Shown in pieces: positions 2,353 through 12,481 of a stretch of 64,000 bases of DNA; position 1 is the first letter of the stretch, and the number at the start of each line of letters is the position of its first letter. Source of the stretch: Microtetraspora sp. NBRC 16547 (lineage in GTDB: Bacteria > Actinomycetota > Actinomycetes > Streptosporangiales > Streptosporangiaceae); contig NZ_BSSE01000001.1 of assembly GCF_030268965.1 (NCBI RefSeq), positions 321,796-385,795 of the forward strand. The letters are read 5' to 3'. Below the pieces are notes generated by a model, which had not been told where the DNA came from, ran no database searches, and worked only from the letters and a program-made list of their open reading frames with translations. The position numbers and the translations under genes were made by a program.

Positions 2353-3804
2353 CTATCCCGCCTGCGCGAGCACCGTCTCCTCGCCCTCGCGTACGGCCTC
2401 GCCGGGCGTGAGCCTGCGGTCGGGCATCAGGGCGAGCGCGACGAGGGCGACGATCGCTCCGGCGACGCCGAGCCACGGGATGACGGTCGCGCTCGCGGCG
2501 GCGTGCGCGGCGGGCAGCCCGGAGAGCGGCGCCTCGCGGGCGACCACCGAGCCGTACGCGGTGCCGGCGACCGCGAGGGCGACCGATCCCCCGATCTGGC
2601 GGAAGAAGGTCAGGTTGGCGCTGGCGGTGCCGATGAACCGCGGGGGCACGGCCCGCTGGATGGCCACGGTGAGCCCGGACAGCATCGGGCCCATGCCGAG
2701 GCCGATGAGCGCCATCCAGCCCATGAGCGCGGGCGTCGCCGAGTCCACGGCCAGGTTCGCACAGAGCAGGGTCCCCGCGACGAGGAAGAACGGCGCGATC
2801 ACCAGCCACGGCTTGTACCGGCCGCTGCGGGAGATGAGCGCCCCGGTGACGGCGCTGCCCGCGACCATGGCCAGCATCAGCGGATAGATGCGCAGGCCGG
2901 ACGCGGTCGCGGTCTGCCCCTGCGCCTCCTGGAAGTAGCGCGGCAGGAAGACCACCCCGGCGTACATGCAGAACGCGGTGGCGAACGAGGCGACGTTGAC
3001 CAGCGTGTACGTCCGATTGGCGAACAGGTGCAACGGCACGATCGGCTGTGCCGCCCGCCGTTCGACCAGGACGAACACGGCGGTCAGGACGGCGGCCGCG
3101 GCGATGGGGCCGACGACCGGGCCGCTCGTCCAGGAGTTGCCGTCCACGCCCTTCTCGGTCAGGCCGACGAGCAGCGCGCTGATGGCGGCGGTGAACACCG
3201 CGATGCCGAGGTAGTCGGGCCGCGCCCCACCCGCGTCGCCGGGACGGTGCGGCAGCCGGAACCAGATGATCGCGAGCAGCACGATCCCGATGGGGACGTT
3301 GACGTAGAAGGCCCAGCGCCAGCTCGCGTGGTCGGTGAACAGGCCGCCGAGGAACGGCCCCGCGATGTAACTCAGCGCCATCACGCCGCCGAGCGCCCCC
3401 TGCACCCGGCCGCTTCGCTCCGGCGGGAAGAGATCGACAACCAGTGCGAGGGAGAGCGGCAGCAGCGCGCCCGCGCCGAGGCCCTGGAGTCCGCGGAACG
3501 CGATCAACTGGTCCATGTCCTGCGCGACCCCGCTCAGGGCGGAGCCCGCGAGGAAGATCGTCACGCCGACAAGCATCAGAGGCTTCCTGCCGTACGCGTC
3601 GGAGAGCCGGCCGTACAGCGGGACGGTGACGGTGGATGTGAGCAGGTACGCGGTCACGACCCAGGTGTAGAGCCGGGCGCCGCCCAGCTCGGCGGTGATC
3701 CGGGGCAGCGCGGTGCCGACGATCGTCTGGTCGAGCATCGCGAGGAACATGCCACCGAGCACGGCGAACAGGAGCAGCCCGTTCTTGCTTGTGTCTGTCT
3801 TCAC
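2353..3804 (-). CDS. MFS drug exporter, DHA2 (EmrB/QacA) family
   Basis: Proton-coupled multidrug efflux pump of the 14-helix DHA2 group. The 483-aa product shows the N-terminal helix with MLDQTIVGTALP, the loop 2-3 motif A (GRLSDAYGRKP), and strings of hydrophobic helices to the end. GTG 3804 is preferred; an ATG at 3834 is also in frame, but neither has a good Shine-Dalgarno. Divergent from the padR gene at 3860 with a PadR operator in between, so PadR probably represses it and is relieved by a pump substrate. The substrate cannot be read from sequence. Confidence 0.9.
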   Translation of the reverse strand: MKTDTSKNGLLLFAVLGGMFLAMLDQTIVGTALPRITAELGGARLYTWVVTAYLLTSTVTVPLYGRLSDAYGRKPLMLVGVTIFLAGSALSGVAQDMDQLIAFRGLQGLGAGALLPLSLALVVDLFPPERSGRVQGALGGVMALSYIAGPFLGGLFTDHASWRWAFYVNVPIGIVLLAIIWFRLPHRPGDAGGARPDYLGIAVFTAAISALLVGLTEKGVDGNSWTSGPVVGPIAAAAVLTAVFVLVERRAAQPIVPLHLFANRTYTLVNVASFATAFCMYAGVVFLPRYFQEAQGQTATASGLRIYPLMLAMVAGSAVTGALISRSGRYKPWLVIAPFFLVAGTLLCANLAVDSATPALMGWMALIGLGMGPMLSGLTVAIQRAVPPRFIGTASANLTFFRQIGGSVALAVAGTAYGSVVAREAPLSGLPAAHAAASATVIPWLGVAGAIVALVALALMPDRRLTPGEAVREGEETVLAQAG

Positions 3805-3814
3805 GTGTTGAAAG

Positions 3815-3838
3815 TGACATGTAAGTTTTGACATGTCA
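3815..3838. promoter_or_regulatory. PadR operator palindrome
   Basis: TGACATGT, eight bases, ACATGTCA form a perfect 8-bp inverted repeat. Its core ATGT-N8-ACAT is the established PadR-family box. It sits between the divergent exporter and padR genes and overlaps the TTGACA-like hexamers of both directions, so a bound dimer would block both promoters. Confidence 0.85.
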
Positions 3839-3853
3839 ACTCGCAGATATAGT
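3828..3853 (+). promoter_or_regulatory. Probable padR promoter, leaderless transcript
   Basis: TTGACA at 3828-3833 and TATAGT at 3848-3853, with a short 14-nt spacer. Transcription about 7 nt after the -10 would start at the A of ATG 3860, which has no Shine-Dalgarno. The short spacer lowers confidence. Confidence 0.45.
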
Positions 3854-3859
3854 TGGCGC

Positions 3860-4429
3860 ATGTCCCTGCGCATCGCGCTCCTCGGCCTGCTGTCGGCCTC
3901 CGGCCCGGCCAGCGGGTACGACCTGACCAAGAAGTTCGAGACGTCGCTCGCCCACGTGTGGCAGGCCGGGCACAGCCAGATCTATCCCGAGCTGGCCAAG
4001 ATGGCGGCAGAAGGGCTGATCACGGTCGAGGCCGAGGGCTCCCGCGGCCGGAAGATCTACACGATCACGCCCGAGGGGCGGGACGAACTGCACCGCTGGC
4101 TCATGGGGTACACCCCCTCGCCTTCCCCGCGCAGCGAGATCGCGCTTCAGGCGTATCTGACCCCGCTGCTGGAGCCGAGGGAGGCCGTCGCCGTACTGGA
4201 ACGCATGGGAGCGAGCTTCGCGGCCAGACTCCGCGAGCTGCAGAAACTGGGCGATCCCAGCAAGAAGTCCGGGTACGGCGGGTACGCGCTGGATCTCGGC
4301 ATCCGGCAGGCCCGGATGGCCATGGAGTGGGCCTCCGACACCATCGCCCACCTCAGCGCCTCAGGCACCGGCACGGACCGCGCGGAAGGCGCAGCGGACG
4401 CGGAAGGCGCGGCGGACTCCGAAGGTTAG
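3860..4429 (+). CDS. PadR-family transcriptional repressor
   Basis: Winged-helix repressor of 189 aa. The N-terminal half carries the family signature (MSLRIALLGLL, then SGYDLTKKFE, then HSQIYPELAKM, then the wing YTITPEGRDEL), followed by a C-terminal helical dimerisation domain (Vir_C-like) to about residue 170 and an acidic/Ala tail. ATG 3860 matches the usual family start; an in-frame ATG at 3833 lies inside the operator and is less likely. It presumably represses itself and the divergent DHA2 exporter. The stop overlaps that of the convergent kinase gene by 4 bp. Confidence 0.9.
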   Translation: MSLRIALLGLLSASGPASGYDLTKKFETSLAHVWQAGHSQIYPELAKMAAEGLITVEAEGSRGRKIYTITPEGRDELHRWLMGYTPSPSPRSEIALQAYLTPLLEPREAVAVLERMGASFAARLRELQKLGDPSKKSGYGGYALDLGIRQARMAMEWASDTIAHLSASGTGTDRAEGAADAEGAADSEG

Positions 4430-6612
4430 GCGCAGGTGAGCGGCGCGGGCAGACCGACCTCGGGGTCGAAGTCGACGTTCCCGAAGTGCCGCTTGAGCAG
4501 GTCCTTCATGGTGCCGTCGGCGTACATGCCGGAGATCGCCGCCTGGACGGCCTCGCATGTGCGGGCGTCACCCTTCGGCACGCCCACGGAGTAGCGCAGG
4601 TCGGTCAGCTTGAGACCGAGCACGGCGAGCCGGAGGTTCGGCACCCGGTTCGCGAACCCGGCGAGGATGAGATCGTCACCGGGGACCGCGTCCACCCTGC
4701 CCTGGACGAGCATGTCCATGCACTCCGCGTAGTTGCCGGCGGCCACCGGCTCCACACTCACCTTGTCCTGGATCAGCGCGACCGACTCGGCGCCCGCCGG
4801 GGCGCACATGCGCCGCCCCTCCAGGTCGCTGAGCCGCCGGATCTGCGAGCCCTTCACCACCAGCATGTCGGTGTGCGCGACGTAGTACGGCCCGGCGAAG
4901 CCGACGGCGTCCTTATGGTTCTCGTCGTAGGCGTAGGTGGCGACGACGAGATCGACGTCGCCGTCGGACAGCGCCCTGGCCCGCTCTGCCCTGCCGATCC
5001 TCCGGAAGGTGATGCCGCCGGCGGGGACCCCCAGCTTGCCCGCGATGTAGGTCGCCACGTCCACGTCGAACCCGGCGAAGGAGCCGCCGCTCAAGCCGAG
5101 ACCGACGCCGGGGAGATCGCCCTTCACGCCGATGGTGAGCCGCCGCGCCCCCAGCGCCTTGTCCACGACCGCGGGGTAGGCGGGAGCGGCCGACCCGGGC
5201 GCCTGCCCCTGCACGCCCGCCCTGCTCGTCGTTGTCGTGCCCGGTGTGCCCTGGTCGCCTCCCAGGCGTACGGCGGCCAGCGCCCCCACCCCGACCACGG
5301 CGGCGACCACGGCCATGACGGCGGTGATCACGCGGGCCCTGCGCCGCCGCCCCGGCCCGCTCTTCGGCGGCTCGGTCACGCCCGCGCTCCGCGACGCCTC
5401 CGTCGAGCCCGCGCCCTGAGACCCCGCACCCTGAGACCCGGCGCCCTGAGACCCGGCGCCCTGAGACCCCGCACCCAGGGACCCGGCGCCCTGAGACCCC
5501 GCACCCAGGGATCCGGAGCCCTGTGACGCCGCCGGCCCGGCGTCCCGCGCTTGGACGTCCCACGCCTGAACACCCAGCGCTTGCCTACCTTGCGCCTGGA
5601 CGCCCTGCGCTTGGACACCCTGTGCTTGGACGTCCCCTGCTTGAACACTCTGCGCCTGAGCGCCCTGCGCTTGGACGCTCTGTGGCGCCGTCTCCCGCGT
5701 CGTCTGTCCCTGGGGCAGGCGCATGTCCCGGGTGACCTCGGCGGGCTCCGGGCTGGCCGCGTGGGCCCCCTCGGACAACACCATCGTGGACGCGTCCCCC
5801 GACTCCGAACGGCCGAGCAGGCGCAACAGGATCCGGTCGGCGGTCGGCCGGGCGGCCGGAGCCTTGCTCAGGCAGGAGCGCACCACGCCACGCAGCGGCT
5901 CCGGCAGCATGCTCACGTCGATGTCGTGGTTGAGCACGCGGTTCAGCACGACCGCGATCGAGTCGCCGCCGAACGCCGCCGTGCCCGTCGCCGCGTACGC
6001 GATGGTCGCCGCCCAGGCGAACACGTCCGACGGCGGCCCCACCTTGTCCCCGGAGATCTGCTCCGGCGCCATGTAGGCCGGCGTGCCGATCGCCCGGCTG
6101 GTGATCGTGCCGGTCGAGTCGATGATCCGGGCGATGCCGAAGTCGACCACGCGCGGCCCGTCCGGAGCGAGCAGCACGTTGTCCGGCTTGAAGTCCCGGT
6201 GCACGATCCCCGCGTGGTGGATCGCCGTCAGCGCCGTCGCCGTGCCGACGGCGAGCCGCTCCAGCGCGGGTCCGATGATCGGCCCGCTCTCCTCCACCGC
6301 CTCGCGCAGAGACCGCCCGTCGATGTACTCGCTCGCGATGTACGGCGTGTCGCCTTCGAGATCGGCCGCGATCACCCTGGCGGTGCAGAAGCTCGCGACC
6401 CGCTGGGCGGCCCGGAGTTCCCGACCGAACCTGGACCGGGCCATCGCGTCACCGCTGAACTTGACGTGCAACAGCTTGATCGCCGCGCGCTCCCCGGCTT
6501 CGTTGCGCCCGAGGTACACCACGCCCTGACCGCCCTCACCGATGCGGCCGGACAGCACGAACGGCCCGAGCCGGAGCGGGTCCCCCGGTCCGAGCGGCGC
6601 GACGTTCGGCAT
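4426..6612 (-). CDS. Membrane Ser/Thr protein kinase with extracellular solute-binding (SBP_bac_3) sensor domain
   Basis: A one-protein receptor kinase. With ATG 6612 (GGGGG upstream; a TTG at 6624 is alternative) the order is: PASTA-less PknB-type kinase (residues ~15-270) with glycine loop GEGGQG, Lys 46 in AAIK, HRDFKPDN at ~138-145 and DFG at 157-159; a long Gln/Ala/Val then Ser/Gly/Ala repeat linker (~310-405); RRRRAR stop-transfer and one membrane helix (~427-449); and an outer polar-amino-acid-type binding domain (~485-728) with the GFDVDVA motif and two Cys that could form a disulfide. The fold of the outer domain implies that an amino acid or similar small ligand controls kinase activity. 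The ligand is unknown and no ABC transporter is adjacent. Confidence 0.9.
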   Translation of the reverse strand: MPNVAPLGPGDPLRLGPFVLSGRIGEGGQGVVYLGRNEAGERAAIKLLHVKFSGDAMARSRFGRELRAAQRVASFCTARVIAADLEGDTPYIASEYIDGRSLREAVEESGPIIGPALERLAVGTATALTAIHHAGIVHRDFKPDNVLLAPDGPRVVDFGIARIIDSTGTITSRAIGTPAYMAPEQISGDKVGPPSDVFAWAATIAYAATGTAAFGGDSIAVVLNRVLNHDIDVSMLPEPLRGVVRSCLSKAPAARPTADRILLRLLGRSESGDASTMVLSEGAHAASPEPAEVTRDMRLPQGQTTRETAPQSVQAQGAQAQSVQAGDVQAQGVQAQGVQAQGRQALGVQAWDVQARDAGPAASQGSGSLGAGSQGAGSLGAGSQGAGSQGAGSQGAGSQGAGSTEASRSAGVTEPPKSGPGRRRRARVITAVMAVVAAVVGVGALAAVRLGGDQGTPGTTTTSRAGVQGQAPGSAAPAYPAVVDKALGARRLTIGVKGDLPGVGLGLSGGSFAGFDVDVATYIAGKLGVPAGGITFRRIGRAERARALSDGDVDLVVATYAYDENHKDAVGFAGPYYVAHTDMLVVKGSQIRRLSDLEGRRMCAPAGAESVALIQDKVSVEPVAAGNYAECMDMLVQGRVDAVPGDDLILAGFANRVPNLRLAVLGLKLTDLRYSVGVPKGDARTCEAVQAAISGMYADGTMKDLLKRHFGNVDFDPEVGLPAPLTCA

Positions 6613-6730
6613 CCACGCCCCCAAGTTTCGGCAAAGTGTCGACGACCATCAGAACTTTACGGCTCCGATGACCGTTTCCCAGCCTCCCGATACCGGGCCG
6701 TGACCCGCGTACGGCTCAGCCCGAGCCGGC

Positions 6731-6778
6731 AGTGAGCCCGGCAGTGATCCCGGCCGTGAGCCCGGCAGTGAGCCCGGC
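6731..6778. repeat. 12-bp tandem repeat, four copies
   Basis: Four near-identical 12-mers of the form (A/C)GTGAGCCCGGC lie between the icd terminator and the kinase gene start. No gene is visible here. Confidence 0.75.
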
Positions 6779-6796
6779 CGTACGCAGGCACGGAAA

Positions 6797-6827
6797 AGGG
6801 CCGCCCGCCACGAAGGCGAGCGGCCCT
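6797..6827 (-). terminator. Rho-independent terminator of icd
   Basis: Arms AGGGCCGC (6797-6804) and GCGGCCCT (6820-6827) plus an inner CGCC/GGCG stem form a strong hairpin; on the minus strand it is followed by TTTT. It lies 17 nt after the icd stop. Confidence 0.82.
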
Positions 6828-6843
6828 GACCGGACGGGCTGGA

Positions 6844-8061
6844 TCAGCCGGCCATCTTCTTCTTCAGGTTCTCGTCCAGAGCCGCGAGGAAGTCCTGCGT
6901 GGTCAGCCACTCGGCGTCGCCGCCGACCAGGAGCGCCAGGTCCTTGGTCATCTGGCCGCCCTCGACGGTCTCGACGCAGACCTGCTCCAGCTTCGCGGCG
7001 AAGTCGATCACCTCGGGCTGGTTGTCGAGCTTGCCGCGGTGCTGCAGGCCGCGGGTCCACGCGAAGATCGACGCGATCGGGTTGGTGGACGTCGGCTTGC
7101 CCTGCTGGTGCTGGCGGAAGTGCCGGGTCACCGTGCCGTGCGCGGCCTCGGCCTCGACGGTCCGGCCATCCGGGGTCATCAGCACGCTGGTCATCAGGCC
7201 GAGCGAGCCGAAGCCCTGCGCGACCGTGTCCGACTGGACGTCGCCGTCGTAGTTCTTGCACGCCCAGACGTAGCCGCCCTCCCACTTCAGCGCGGAAGCG
7301 ACCATGTCGTCGATCAGGCGGTGCTCGTAGGTGATGCCGGCGGCGTCGAAATCCGCCTTGAACTCGGTCTCGTAGACCTCGGCGAAGATGTCCTTGAACC
7401 GGCCGTCGTACGCCTTGAGGATCGTGTTCTTCGTCGACAGGTAGACCGGGTAGTTCCGGGCCAGGCCGTACCGCATGGAGGCACGGGCGAAGTCACGGAT
7501 CGACTCGTCCAGGTTGTACATCGCCATCGCGACGCCGGCGCCCGGGAAGTCGTAGACGTTCAGCTCGACCGGCTCGCTGCCGTCCTTCGGGGTGAAGGTC
7601 AGGGTCAGCGTGCCCTCGCCCGGCACCTTGATGTCGGTCGCGCGGTACTGGTCGCCGAACGCGTGACGGCCGACCACGATCGGCTTGTTCCAGCCGGGAA
7701 CGAGCCGCGGCACGTTCGACATGATGATCGGCTCGCGGAAGATGACGCCGCCGAGGATGTTCCGGATCGTCCCGTTCGGGGACTTCCACATCTTCTTCAG
7801 GCCGAACTCCTCGACCCGCGCCTCGTCCGGCGTGATCGTCGCACACTTGACGCCGACGCCGTACTGCTTGATGGCGTTCGCGGCGTCGATCGTGACCTGG
7901 TCGTCGGTGGCGTCGCGGTGCTCGATGCCGAGGTCGTAGTACTTCAGGTCGACGTCGAGGTAGGGAAGGATCAGCTGGTCCTTGATGAACTGCCAGATGA
8001 TCCGGGTCATCTCGTCGCCGTCAAGCTCGACGACCGGACCCGCTACCTTGATCTTGGGCAT
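6844..8061 (-). CDS. icd: NADP-dependent isocitrate dehydrogenase (eukaryotic-type, homodimeric)
   Basis: TCA-cycle enzyme that oxidatively decarboxylates isocitrate to 2-oxoglutarate with NADP. The 405-aa length and sequence ([12 protein letters not shown] start, KSPNGTIRN substrate-binding motif, [18 protein letters not shown]) place it in the dimeric type II family shared with eukaryotes, not the 740-aa monomeric form found in many actinobacteria. ATG 8061 is the standard start. Downstream is a clear terminator; upstream is the DUF3017 gene. Confidence 0.96.
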
Positions 8062-8502: not shown

Positions 8503-8679
8503 CGCTCACCGCTCGGGCTCACGGTCGCTACGCTCCCTGCGCCGCTCACCGCACGGGCTCACGGTCGCATTCGCGTGCTCGCTCGCTACGCTCCCTGCGC
8601 CGCTCACCGCTCGGGCTCACGGTCGCATTCGCGTGCTCGCTCGCTACGCTCCCTGCGCCGCTCACCGCTCGTCGATCGG
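8503..8679. repeat. 58-bp tandem repeat at the gltA 3' end
   Basis: Copies begin at 8503 (18 bp deleted), 8543, 8601 and 8659 (partial), each opening with CGCTCACCGC. The spacing of the last three is exactly 58 bp and copies are almost identical. The final partial copy contains the citrate synthase stop codon. There are no unique spacers, so it is not a CRISPR array. Confidence 0.92.
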
Positions 8680-9783
8680 CGTCCACTTCTGGTCGCGCTC
8701 TCCGATGTACTCGCTGTCCGGGCGGATCAGGCGATTGTCGGCGTGCTGCTCGATCACGTGCGCGGTCCACCCGGACATCCGGCTGACCGAGAACACCGGG
8801 GTGAACAGGTCCGTCGGGATGCCGAGGTAGTGGTAGACCGTCGCGGCGTAGAAGTCCACGTTCGGATACAGGCCCTTCTCCGCGAAGACGACCTCCTCCA
8901 TCTCCTTGGACATCCGGTAGAACGTGTCGTCGCCCGACGCCTCGCCCAACTCCCGCGACATCTTCCGCAGGTGCGTCGCCCGCGGATCCTCGGTCTTGTA
9001 GACCCGGTGCCCGAAGCCCATGATCTTCTCGCCCGCCGCGAGCCTGTCCCGCACCGCCTGCGCGACCCCCGCGGGGTCGATCGCTTCCAGCGTACGCATG
9101 ACCTGCTCGTTCGCGCCTCCGTGCAACGGGCCCTTCAGCGTGCCGATGGCCGCGACGATGGCCGAGTGCATGTCGGACAGAGTCGCGGCGCAGACGCGGG
9201 CGGCGAACGTGGAGGCGTTCATCGTGTGGTCGGCGTGCAGCACCAGGCACGTGTCGAAGATCTCGACCTCGCGCTGCGACGGCATCCTCCCGGTGATCTG
9301 CAGCAGGAAGTTCGCCGCGATGCTCAGCTCGGGATCCGGATCGGGAATCGAGGCGCCGGTGCGCGCGGCATGATAACGGGCGACCAGGATGGGCTGCTGC
9401 GCCGTGAGCCGCGCCGCCTTGCGCAGGTTGGCGTCCGCGGCGTTGGAATCCTTGTCCGGGTCGTCGGCGCCGGCGAGGGAGACGAGACTGCGCAGCGCCT
9501 CCATGGGCGCCTGTTTCCCGGCGATCTCCGGGATGTTGCTCTCGACCAGCCCCCCGAGGCCACGTCCTCGGACCAGCTCCGCCCTGTACGCGGCCAACTG
9601 ACCGCGCGTCGGCAACGAGCCGTGCTGGAGGAGATGCGCGATCTCTTCGAAGGTGGTGCGGCCGGCCAGATCGTGGATGTCGTAGCCGCGATAGAAAAGC
9701 CGGCCGGCTTTCCCGTCGATGTCGCTGAGCGCTGTGGACGCGGCGACGACATCGGCGAGGCCTTTGGTGGGCTTGTCCGCCAT
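8662..9783 (-). CDS. gltA: Citrate synthase
   Basis: Condenses oxaloacetate and acetyl-CoA to citrate. The 373-aa sequence has the family motifs PLHGGANEQ and GFGHRVYK (active-site histidines) and a conserved acidic residue further on (VDFYAATVYH). This short dimeric form is typical of Gram-positives; methylcitrate synthases are close relatives, so 2-methylcitrate activity cannot be excluded. Start ATG 9783. The stop codon lies in the tandem-repeat tract, suggesting the 3' end has been remodelled. Confidence 0.92.
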   Translation of the reverse strand: MADKPTKGLADVVAASTALSDIDGKAGRLFYRGYDIHDLAGRTTFEEIAHLLQHGSLPTRGQLAAYRAELVRGRGLGGLVESNIPEIAGKQAPMEALRSLVSLAGADDPDKDSNAADANLRKAARLTAQQPILVARYHAARTGASIPDPDPELSIAANFLLQITGRMPSQREVEIFDTCLVLHADHTMNASTFAARVCAATLSDMHSAIVAAIGTLKGPLHGGANEQVMRTLEAIDPAGVAQAVRDRLAAGEKIMGFGHRVYKTEDPRATHLRKMSRELGEASGDDTFYRMSKEMEEVVFAEKGLYPNVDFYAATVYHYLGIPTDLFTPVFSVSRMSGWTAHVIEQHADNRLIRPDSEYIGERDQKWTPIDER

Positions 9784-10642: not shown

Positions 10643-12481
10643 TCAGCCGTCAGCATGCGTCCCCGTGCCGGGCACCGCCTGGCCGGTGGCCGCCTCCTGT
10701 GGCCGGGGCGTGCGCCACTTCGGCCATGCTCGCTGGGCCCGCTGGCCCTTCCGGAACGGCAGACCGGGTAGGTCCATGGTGAAGAACGCCTCCGCCTGGA
10801 GCGCGGAGACCCCGATGCGCGGCAGGTCCCGCGTGTGCGGATACACCAGGAACCTCGGTTCCCAGAACGGCCGGAACTTGGCGTTGAACTTGTACAGCGA
10901 CTCGATCTGGAACCAGCGGGAGAGGAACACGAGGAGACCGCGCCACGCGCGGAGCACCGGGCCGGCGCCGAGGCGCTCACCTCTGGCCAGCGCCGAACGG
11001 AACATGGCGAAGTTCAGCGACACCCTGGTCACGCCCAGCTCCGGCGCCGCCTGCAGCGCCTTCACGATGAGCAGCTCGTTGAGCCCGGGGTCGGCCTGGC
11101 GGTCCCGGCGCATCAGATCGAGGGACATGCCGTCCCGGCCCCACGGCACGAAGTGCAGGATCGCGCGGATGTCCCCGCCGGGCGGGTCGGTCCTCTCCTC
11201 GCTCTCCTTGTGCGCCGTCACCACGATGCAGTCGTCGTCCGCCGGGCCGCCGAACCGGCCGAGTGCCATGGAGAAGCCGCGCTCAGTCTCGGTGCCGCGC
11301 CAGAAGTCCGCGGCGTCGCGGATCTGCGCCTTCTCCACCTCGGTGAGGTCTCCCACCCGCCGGACCAGACAGGTGTAGCCGAGTCGCTCGACGCGGTTGA
11401 CCATCTGCCGGACGTTGCGCATGGCCCGGCCTTCCAGTGTGAAGTCGGCGACCTCGACGATGGCCTCGTCGCCCAGCTCCAGGGCGTCCAGGCCGCCGCT
11501 CCTGGTCCACACCTCACCCCCGAGCTCGCTGCACCCGATGACCGACGGAACCCAGGCATGCCGCCTGGCCTCCTCCAGGAAGCAGCTGATCGCGCCCGGC
11601 CATGCCTCGACGTCGCCGATCGGGTCGCCACTGGCCAGCATCACCCCCGCCACGACGCGGTAGGCGATCGCGGCCTTACCGCTTCGGGAGAAGATCACGC
11701 TCTTGTCGCGTCGCAACGCGAAGTAACCCAGCGAGTCCTGCCTGCCGTATCGGTCGAGCAGGGCGCGCAGCCGCTCCTCGTCCGCGCCGCTGAGCGCGGC
11801 GACGGGTCGCTCCGGCCGGAGCGCGAGGTAGATCGTCGTGATCGCGGTGAGCGCGCCGAGCCCGGCGAGTGAGTAGTACACCAGGTCGGAGACGCGGTCG
11901 GAGGAGTACTGCAGGGGCCCTTCCATGCCGAGCAGGCCGAGGACCACGTGCTCCATCTGGTCGCTCAGCGTGGGCCGGCCGATGACCGTACGGGTTTGCA
12001 AGGCGACGAAAATCCAGCCGATGGCGAGGTCGAAGGCTCCGAGAACGAGGAAGTTCCACAGCGCCCGCCACCGCGACCGCGGATCCGAGAGCGCGTAGAA
12101 CTCGCGCCGGTTGACCAGCAGCACCGCGCAGAAAATCAGGCTCACGGTCGCGGCGATCGGATGACGCGAGCGCAGGCCCTCGATGGCCGCGCCGACCAGC
12201 AGGAGCAGCACCACAGCCCGCCAGGCGCGCTTTTTGCGCCGCCGGAGGGCATGCGCCACCATGATCATCATGATGCCGACGAGCAGCGTCGCCGCCTGGG
12301 CCAGCGTGGTGACGCTTCCCGGAAGGACACTGGCCATCTCGTTGAACCGGCTCGCCCGGACATGCGGCACGATCGCCTTGACGATGTTCAGGATGCCGAT
12401 CACCAGCGCGGCGTACCCCGCCGCCGCGGGCACCCACGGCCGCGAGACCCCGCCGCGCAGAAGGCTCATCCGAGTGCTCAC
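10643..12481 (-). CDS. Phosphatidylglycerol lysyltransferase-like membrane protein (DUF2156)
   Basis: A 612-aa protein with about six N-terminal membrane helices (to ~residue 240) and a C-terminal DUF2156/LPG_synthase catalytic domain. This is the MprF layout, in which aminoacyl-tRNA is used to aminoacylate phosphatidylglycerol, lowering membrane negative charge and raising resistance to cationic peptides. It lacks the fused lysyl-tRNA synthetase of mycobacterial LysX. GTG 12481 has no Shine-Dalgarno; TATCGT 8 nt upstream suggests a leaderless transcript. The transferred amino acid cannot be read from the sequence. Confidence 0.85.
   Translation of the reverse strand: MSTRMSLLRGGVSRPWVPAAAGYAALVIGILNIVKAIVPHVRASRFNEMASVLPGSVTTLAQAATLLVGIMMIMVAHALRRRKKRAWRAVVLLLLVGAAIEGLRSRHPIAATVSLIFCAVLLVNRREFYALSDPRSRWRALWNFLVLGAFDLAIGWIFVALQTRTVIGRPTLSDQMEHVVLGLLGMEGPLQYSSDRVSDLVYYSLAGLGALTAITTIYLALRPERPVAALSGADEERLRALLDRYGRQDSLGYFALRRDKSVIFSRSGKAAIAYRVVAGVMLASGDPIGDVEAWPGAISCFLEEARRHAWVPSVIGCSELGGEVWTRSGGLDALELGDEAIVEVADFTLEGRAMRNVRQMVNRVERLGYTCLVRRVGDLTEVEKAQIRDAADFWRGTETERGFSMALGRFGGPADDDCIVVTAHKESEERTDPPGGDIRAILHFVPWGRDGMSLDLMRRDRQADPGLNELLIVKALQAAPELGVTRVSLNFAMFRSALARGERLGAGPVLRAWRGLLVFLSRWFQIESLYKFNAKFRPFWEPRFLVYPHTRDLPRIGVSALQAEAFFTMDLPGLPFRKGQRAQRAWPKWRTPRPQEAATGQAVPGTGTHADG

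Follow-up and report, generated by a model that had tools for sequence, protein, structure and literature searches.

The stretch of DNA analysed here, called the window in what follows, comprises 64,000 nucleotides of the soil bacterium Microtetraspora sp. NBRC 16547 (family Streptosporangiaceae, contig NZ_BSSE01000001.1), and the gene under study encodes, within a single chain, a serine/threonine (Ser/Thr) kinase, a membrane helix and a solute-binding protein (SBP) domain. The gene lies on the minus strand at 4426..6612 and gives 728 residues from an ATG, its longest open frame starting at an alternative TTG at 6624. Translation probably begins at the ATG at 6612, because 13 of the 14 relatives examined show Met-Pro at the same position (consensus MPxIxPLGxGDP). 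Residues are numbered according to the TTG-initiated translation (P0001), from which four must be subtracted to obtain the numbering from the ATG. On the same strand, and in order from the N terminus, four parts can be distinguished: a Hanks-type kinase domain (5827..6555; residues 24-266; Pfam Pkinase, PF00069, E 7.1e-37), a repetitive linker (5408..5678), a single membrane helix (5269..5328; residues about 433-452) and an outer SBP_bac_3 domain (4429..5193; residues 478-732, matched by PF00497 over 496-715 at E 3.4e-19, with 69.3 bits against a gathering cut-off of 26.4). Both Pfam matches exceed their gathering scores. The linker combines predicted disorder with two arrays of 15-bp repeats, located by Tandem Repeats Finder (TRF) at 5408-5532 and 5544-5678, and its placement between the kinase and the membrane helix makes it probably cytoplasmic. 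The helix corresponds to the most hydrophobic 20-mer C-terminal to the kinase, directly follows the residues RRRR on the kinase side and is the one hydrophobic segment given by a hydropathy scan of the tail; a hydrophobic 20-mer between the two domains also occurs in all 40 fusions aligned, where the best one per row was sought. With this layout the protein would cross the membrane once, with the SBP domain outside and the kinase inside.

The kinase half carries the hallmarks by which Hanks-type Ser/Thr kinases are recognised, namely the Lys/Glu pair, the HRD, DFG and APE motifs and the glycine loop. Lys50, Glu69, HRD 142-144, Asn149 and DFG 161-163 are invariant in the 40 aligned fusions, as are the three glycines of the glycine loop, the Pro-Glu of APE (its Ala is replaced by Ser in three rows) and the activation-segment residues Thr173, Thr175 and Thr181. 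Judged by the ratio of non-synonymous to synonymous substitution rates (dN/dS) against five relatives, both halves are under purifying selection and the outer domain less so, with values of 0.10-0.14 for the kinase and 0.35-0.47, about 3-4 times higher, for the outer domain. By sequence comparison the kinase is one of a set expanded in this genome, where 17 further places encode kinases 42-59% identical to it; hydropathy scans of the fetched sequences give one hydrophobic segment after the kinase in 13 of these and several in the other four. The outer parts differ among these paralogues, and a Pfam scan of three of them returned one glycosyl hydrolase family 6 (GH6) domain and two outer parts without a match. 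The GH6 case (L259:19-2337, on G000:C33) has one hydrophobic segment and a C-terminal GH6 domain (PF01341, 3.5e-51), and is a kinase-hydrolase fusion. Past the window end, two further kinases (L253 and L255, G000:C1:398825-402004), 59% and 56% identical to the window kinase and about 2.4 kb apart, bear long tails without a Pfam match. What is said below on separate origins applies to the SBP halves, the part of the proteins that was placed in a tree.

The two domains are fused in frame at 75 of 80 named Streptosporangiaceae loci, which are the best 80 of 246 relatives, and at the other five the SBP match begins no more than about 520 bases from the end of a contig. The same arrangement is found in 39 of 40 high-scoring regions fetched from other genomes of the family (38 genomes; an SBP match is present in 98 of 120 family genomes), the exception (L061) being cut by a contig end. 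A chance joining is therefore excluded. All 80 named loci belong to Streptosporangiaceae genera, the fusion occurs in at least eleven genera, and the nearest named relatives are four Microtetraspora species (75-79% over the outer domain). An SBP_bac_3 match at E 0.001 is obtained in all 40 fusion members, and four Cys residues of the outer domain are invariant (607, 635, 690 and 731). Two loci (L077 and L079) hold a second, diverged paralogue with no isocitrate dehydrogenase gene (icd) nearby; these are included in counts over 40 rows and excluded from the pocket counts over 38 rows given below. No kinase domain was found in 20 long open frames picked from the SBP matches listed for 246 genomes of the class (18 frames outside the family, two inside); fusions may still exist elsewhere, and in GC-rich DNA a long frame is by itself no evidence of one. 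An earlier reading of the DNA letters, hereafter the original prediction, had proposed a receptor kinase sensing through a domain of the SBP_bac_3 type, and this receptor-like layout is now well supported by the sequence motifs, the membrane segment, the conservation among relatives and the predicted structure: its coordinates match the start shared by relatives, the kinase motifs that it called intact are invariant at the key catalytic residues, its one membrane helix recurs across the alignment and as a low-confidence helix in the model described next, its outer domain does come after the repetitive linker, and the domain search that it suggested for other kinase-SBP fusions has produced the two series of in-frame loci described above.

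Structure prediction with AlphaFold2 gives the outer domain alone a predicted local distance difference test score (pLDDT) of 95.7 and a predicted template modelling score (pTM) of 0.92. For the full chain the mean pLDDT is 75.6 and the pTM 0.47; the kinase and SBP folds are both present, the weak spots include the kinase activation segment, the linker is disordered (293-424 in ATG numbering), and an isolated helix of low confidence (426-449) stands at the membrane segment. The solved folds closest to the outer domain are those of an Enterococcus SBP with glutamate (5eyf, Z 26.6), the glutamate sensor iGluSnFR (24.8) and, third, M. tuberculosis GlnH with aspartate (24.2), matches that differ by less than 1 Z unit being ties. 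The closest by sequence is an ancestral arginine/glutamine-binding protein, followed by GlnH and 5eyf. The outer domain is thus modelled as an intact two-lobed SBP of the "Venus flytrap" type. The original prediction had made its case depend on a ligand pocket in the predicted structure and, as far as the models go, the fold is intact and its nearest counterparts are glutamate- and aspartate-binding proteins.

The ancestry of the sensor was addressed with a tree of 53 SBP rows, including 25 of the 40 fusion rows, in which long-branch warnings apply to some SBPs and to the M. tuberculosis GlnH fragment. The comparison set was drawn from 19 regions of 12 kb surrounding pknG, of which 16 yielded an SBP. 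The fusion SBPs form a single clade (97/89), and its sister (98/93) unites the 16 pknG-neighbouring SBPs with one further SBP of the Microtetraspora genome (L006), which makes GlnH-type SBPs from the pknG neighbourhood the sister group of the outer domain in this tree. The SBPs of the StpK7 family, another group of kinase-SBP proteins, lie far from the fusions and group with a different same-genome SBP (L003; 100/99). Forcing the two kinds of fusion together is rejected by the approximately unbiased (AU) test (p 1.6e-69), from which it follows that fusion of an SBP_bac_3 domain to such a kinase has happened at least twice, the window-type SBP having been recruited, on this phylogenetic evidence, independently of that of StpK7. 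One Pfam search of 25 draft genomes that bear the fusion detected PknG in 17 and not in the other eight. In the Microtetraspora genome pknG lies on contig C9 and the fusion gene on C1. Downstream of pknG (L083) the order, read in this one genome, is a PP2C phosphatase, a VWA protein, a 485-residue frame without a Pfam match, at most a candidate for GlnX, and a GlnH-like SBP (L083:8193-9068); the latter is the same-genome SBP closest to the outer domain (about 49%).

In M. tuberculosis GlnH, Ser164, Arg169 and Asp250 are reported to hold the amine and carboxyl groups of the ligand, while Arg147, Trp232 and Thr162 hold the side-chain carboxyl, Arg147 and Thr162 being tied in the same 2018 paper to specificity for Asp/Glu (PMC6069109). 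At these two sets of places the window protein has Ala, His and Asp, and Arg, Tyr and Thr, respectively. The place of Arg147 is taken by Arg548 (4981..4983, minus strand), which is invariant, and that of Asp250, the amine contact, by Asp650 (4675..4677, minus strand). Among the 38 fusions, these three retained positions read Arg in 38 (Arg147), Thr in 37 and Ala in one (Thr162), and Asp in 35 and Glu in three (Asp250), while the 16 pknG-neighbouring SBPs have Arg in 16, Thr in 14 and Ser in two, and Asp in 14 and Asn in two. The remaining half behaves differently. The Ser164 place holds Ser in 17 fusions, Ala in 15, Pro in four and Thr in two (Ser in 14 and Thr in two of the pknG-neighbouring SBPs). 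At the place of Arg169, the alpha-carboxylate contact, which is Arg in 13, Asn in two and Ser in one of the pknG-neighbouring SBPs, the window protein carries His570 (4915..4917, minus strand), a residue not conserved among the fusions. The loop bearing it has 12 residues in all 16 pknG-neighbouring SBPs and nine or ten in 17 of the 38 fusions, and a pattern search for the canonical Arg motif finds it in one of the 38 fusions against 14 of the 16. As read from the alignments, half of the amino-acid site is kept (Arg147, Thr162 and Asp250) and the alpha-carboxylate clamp around Arg169 is dismantled. The original prediction of an amino-acid-binding type of domain was right as to the fold, but the arginine that holds the alpha-carboxylate in relatives is missing or unconstrained. 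A compensating basic residue at alignment A1 position 107 (YYxAH) was considered and dropped, since His stands there in 14 of the 16 pknG-neighbouring SBPs as well. In three SBPs near pknG, from three genomes (L091, L092 and L093), Asn or Ser takes the place of Arg169 and the next position is an Arg, and the clamp may also be variable within the PknG pathway.

The interpretation that we favour, with somewhat better than even confidence, is that the gene encodes a single-pass receptor Ser/Thr kinase whose outer Venus-flytrap domain binds a small solute bearing a carboxylate, the resulting signal gating the kinase. Its domain order, catalytic motifs, SBP fold, SBP ancestry, pocket changes and conservation are shown by sequence or model, and from these we infer the topology, ligand binding, signal transfer, kinase activity and the existence of targets. 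In the proposed mechanism, the outer domain would bind the solute outside the membrane, its opening and closing would be relayed through the one membrane helix and the flexible linker, and the relayed signal would alter the activity of the cytoplasmic kinase, probably via dimerisation. An extracellular metabolite would in this way be coupled directly to Ser/Thr phosphorylation, and one polypeptide would do the job of GlnH, GlnX and PknG together. The ligand would probably place a carboxylate at the Arg147/Thr162 site, with an amine or a polar group close to Asp250, and need not be a standard alpha-amino acid. The dismantling of the clamp around Arg169 suggests that it may not be an ordinary amino acid. 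A more specific form of this proposal, which is tentative, holds that this receptor kinase, widespread in Streptosporangiaceae, has a sensor of common ancestry with the PknG-pathway SBPs which, once the clamp had been lost, was redirected to another carboxylate, such as a compound resembling gamma-aminobutyric acid (GABA) or a non-amino dicarboxylate. If so, a single protein would parallel GlnH-GlnX-PknG, and would do so even in genomes where no PknG was detected (8 of 25).

Several observations weigh against the receptor proposal. The place of Trp232 is occupied by Tyr in 32 of the 38 fusions and by other residues in six, Tyr being found in all 16 pknG-neighbouring SBPs; that of Arg169 is a gap in 17 fusions, Arg in nine, Lys in eight and His, Gly, Ser or Pro in one each; the loop around it contains no basic residue in 14 of the 38; and loss of the alpha-carboxylate arginine could mean that ligand binding has been lost. 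In the tree, the M. tuberculosis GlnH fragment falls on a long branch outside both clades, and L006, which is not near pknG, groups with the pknG-neighbouring SBPs, so that descent from a true PknG-pathway sensor is not established. The pocket is compatible with a changed ligand, with an alpha-carboxylate held in some other manner or with decayed binding, and plain decay is disfavoured because the kept half of the site is near-invariant. The same consideration bears on the idea that the outer domain has no small ligand and serves as a structural or protein-contact module, the kinase responding to a partner protein, a separate binding protein or the envelope. Near-loss of the canonical Arg motif, shortening of the Arg169 loop in fusions and in none of the pknG-neighbouring SBPs, and the faster evolution of the outer domain relative to the kinase all speak for such a module, which is nevertheless unlikely, as the near invariance of Arg147, Thr162 and Asp250 amid this drift is hard to explain without a ligand and the predicted SBP fold is intact. 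It is possible, if on the doubtful side, that the protein is an ordinary Asp/Glu receptor with the ligand of GlnH, working in parallel to PknG and holding the alpha-carboxylate by the backbone or another residue. The closest folds include SBPs with bound Glu and Asp, GlnH and 5eyf come next by sequence after the ancestral arginine/glutamine-binding protein, the two residues tied to Asp/Glu specificity are kept, and the same genome also has pknG with a nearby GlnH-like SBP. This has to be set against the loss of two of GlnH's three amine/carboxyl contacts: Ser164 and Arg169 are replaced here by Ala and His, and neither position is conserved among the fusions.

The genes around the kinase bring in a further explanation, by which the kinase would be the operon partner and controller of citrate synthase (8662..9783, minus strand) and the NADP-dependent isocitrate dehydrogenase encoded by icd (6844..8061, minus strand). 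The two neighbours are indeed recurrent: of the 75 fused named loci, 60 carry icd upstream of the kinase gene in the same orientation and 58 carry citrate synthase, and three of the 15 loci without icd have less than 3 kb of upstream sequence. However, the gap between icd and the kinase, taken from match to match, ranges from under 0.2 to 7 kb and is 450 bp or less in only 23 of the 60, and galE is found on the other side of the kinase gene in 74 of the 75, which points to a conserved neighbourhood. Within the window, a terminator-like hairpin stands between icd and the kinase gene (6786..6836, minus strand; -35.4 kcal/mol, z -5.9, followed by UUUU), although it was not called by a terminator scanner, and a search of 6400-7000 gave no sigma-70-like promoter. 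The kinase gene also has a conserved upstream element of its own, GCCGTAAAGTTC (6652..6663, minus strand), about 45 bp before the ATG. Starts could be located by pattern for 67 of 81 genes (the 80 named loci and the window), and CGTAAAGT occurs about 45 bp 5' of the ATG in 64 of these 67 upstream regions across the family, the window included. The octamer has 73 copies in the 2.84 million bases of the 80 named loci, both strands counted, which indicates that nearly all copies are those before the kinase gene, and CGTAAAGTT is on these counts a conserved element private to that gene and seldom present elsewhere in these loci. For the longer form SYCGTAAAGTTY, the window contains a single match with at most one mismatch, where 0.15 are expected, and since 14 of 100 shuffles also gave one, this count is by itself uninformative. 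Because of the hairpin after icd and the separate upstream element, the kinase gene is probably its own transcription unit. The variable gap, the hairpin and this element rule out an operon with icd and citrate synthase as the principal explanation, and control of the two enzymes through such a partnership is improbable.

Other features of the window lie beside this gene. A PadR regulator gene (3833-4429, plus strand) is oriented divergently from an MFS efflux gene (2353-3927, minus strand) and looks like a separate module; PadR is present in only some of the named loci. At 10646-12481, on the minus strand, an LPG_synthase_C and tRNA-synt_2_TM region resembles lysyl-phosphatidylglycerol synthase.

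Few of the signals that switch on bacterial Ser/Thr kinases are known, and the favoured receptor reading is of interest in this respect: the window protein has, in one chain with a kinase of intact motifs, a well-folded sensor domain belonging to a class that is routinely screened for ligands. With this system one can ask directly whether a bacterial Ser/Thr kinase can be gated by an extracellular metabolite with no partner protein involved. It could also show how the pocket of a binding protein changes once freed from transport.

The kinase-SBP architecture is already known in print, and the original prediction, which had set this fusion against bacterial membrane kinases that mostly carry PASTA or no known sensor, must be amended on this point. 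Kinase and SBP were reported in 2018 to be encoded in one polypeptide by some genes, with MSMEG_1200 named and 260 more counted in InterPro (PMC6069109), and these 260 may include Streptosporangiaceae proteins. A literature search found no study of the Streptosporangiaceae proteins described here, subscription journals being mostly outside its reach. MSMEG_1200 is StpK7, which according to a review influences susceptibility to phage TM4 (PMC13355554). StpK7 of M. smegmatis (NF052427; members L232-L234) resembles the window protein in combining kinase, hydrophobic segment and SBP_bac_3 in one chain. However, the window protein scores 121.7 bits against an equivalog cut-off of 900, the whole genome has no match to NF052427 at 1e-100, and its SBP belongs to a different clade by both tree and AU test. 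The best NCBIfam match of the window protein is AfsK (NF053615; 220.4 bits over residues 11-409), far under the cut-off of 1300 bits, and its outer domain differs in being an SBP. Likeness to the PknB-type PASTA kinases (NF033483) amounts to 168.9 bits against a cut-off of 450 and is confined to residues 24-320, with no Pfam match to PASTA in the window protein. GlnH, GlnX and PknG are described as three separate proteins (PMC6069109, PMC9769921), whereas here the SBP is fused to a membrane-bound kinase in one polypeptide instead of standing apart beside pknG, and Pfam finds neither the TPR nor the rubredoxin domain of PknG. The SBPs near pknG share with the outer domain the four Cys and the positions of Arg147, Thr162 and Asp250: the side-chain carboxylate contacts Arg147 and Thr162 of the PknG-linked GlnH are kept and, of its alpha-carboxylate/amine contacts Ser164, Arg169 and Asp250, only Asp250. 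Relative to these known systems, the novelty lies in a sensor that originated as a sister of GlnH, was recruited independently and has a half-dismantled amino-acid clamp, and in an upstream element private to the gene.

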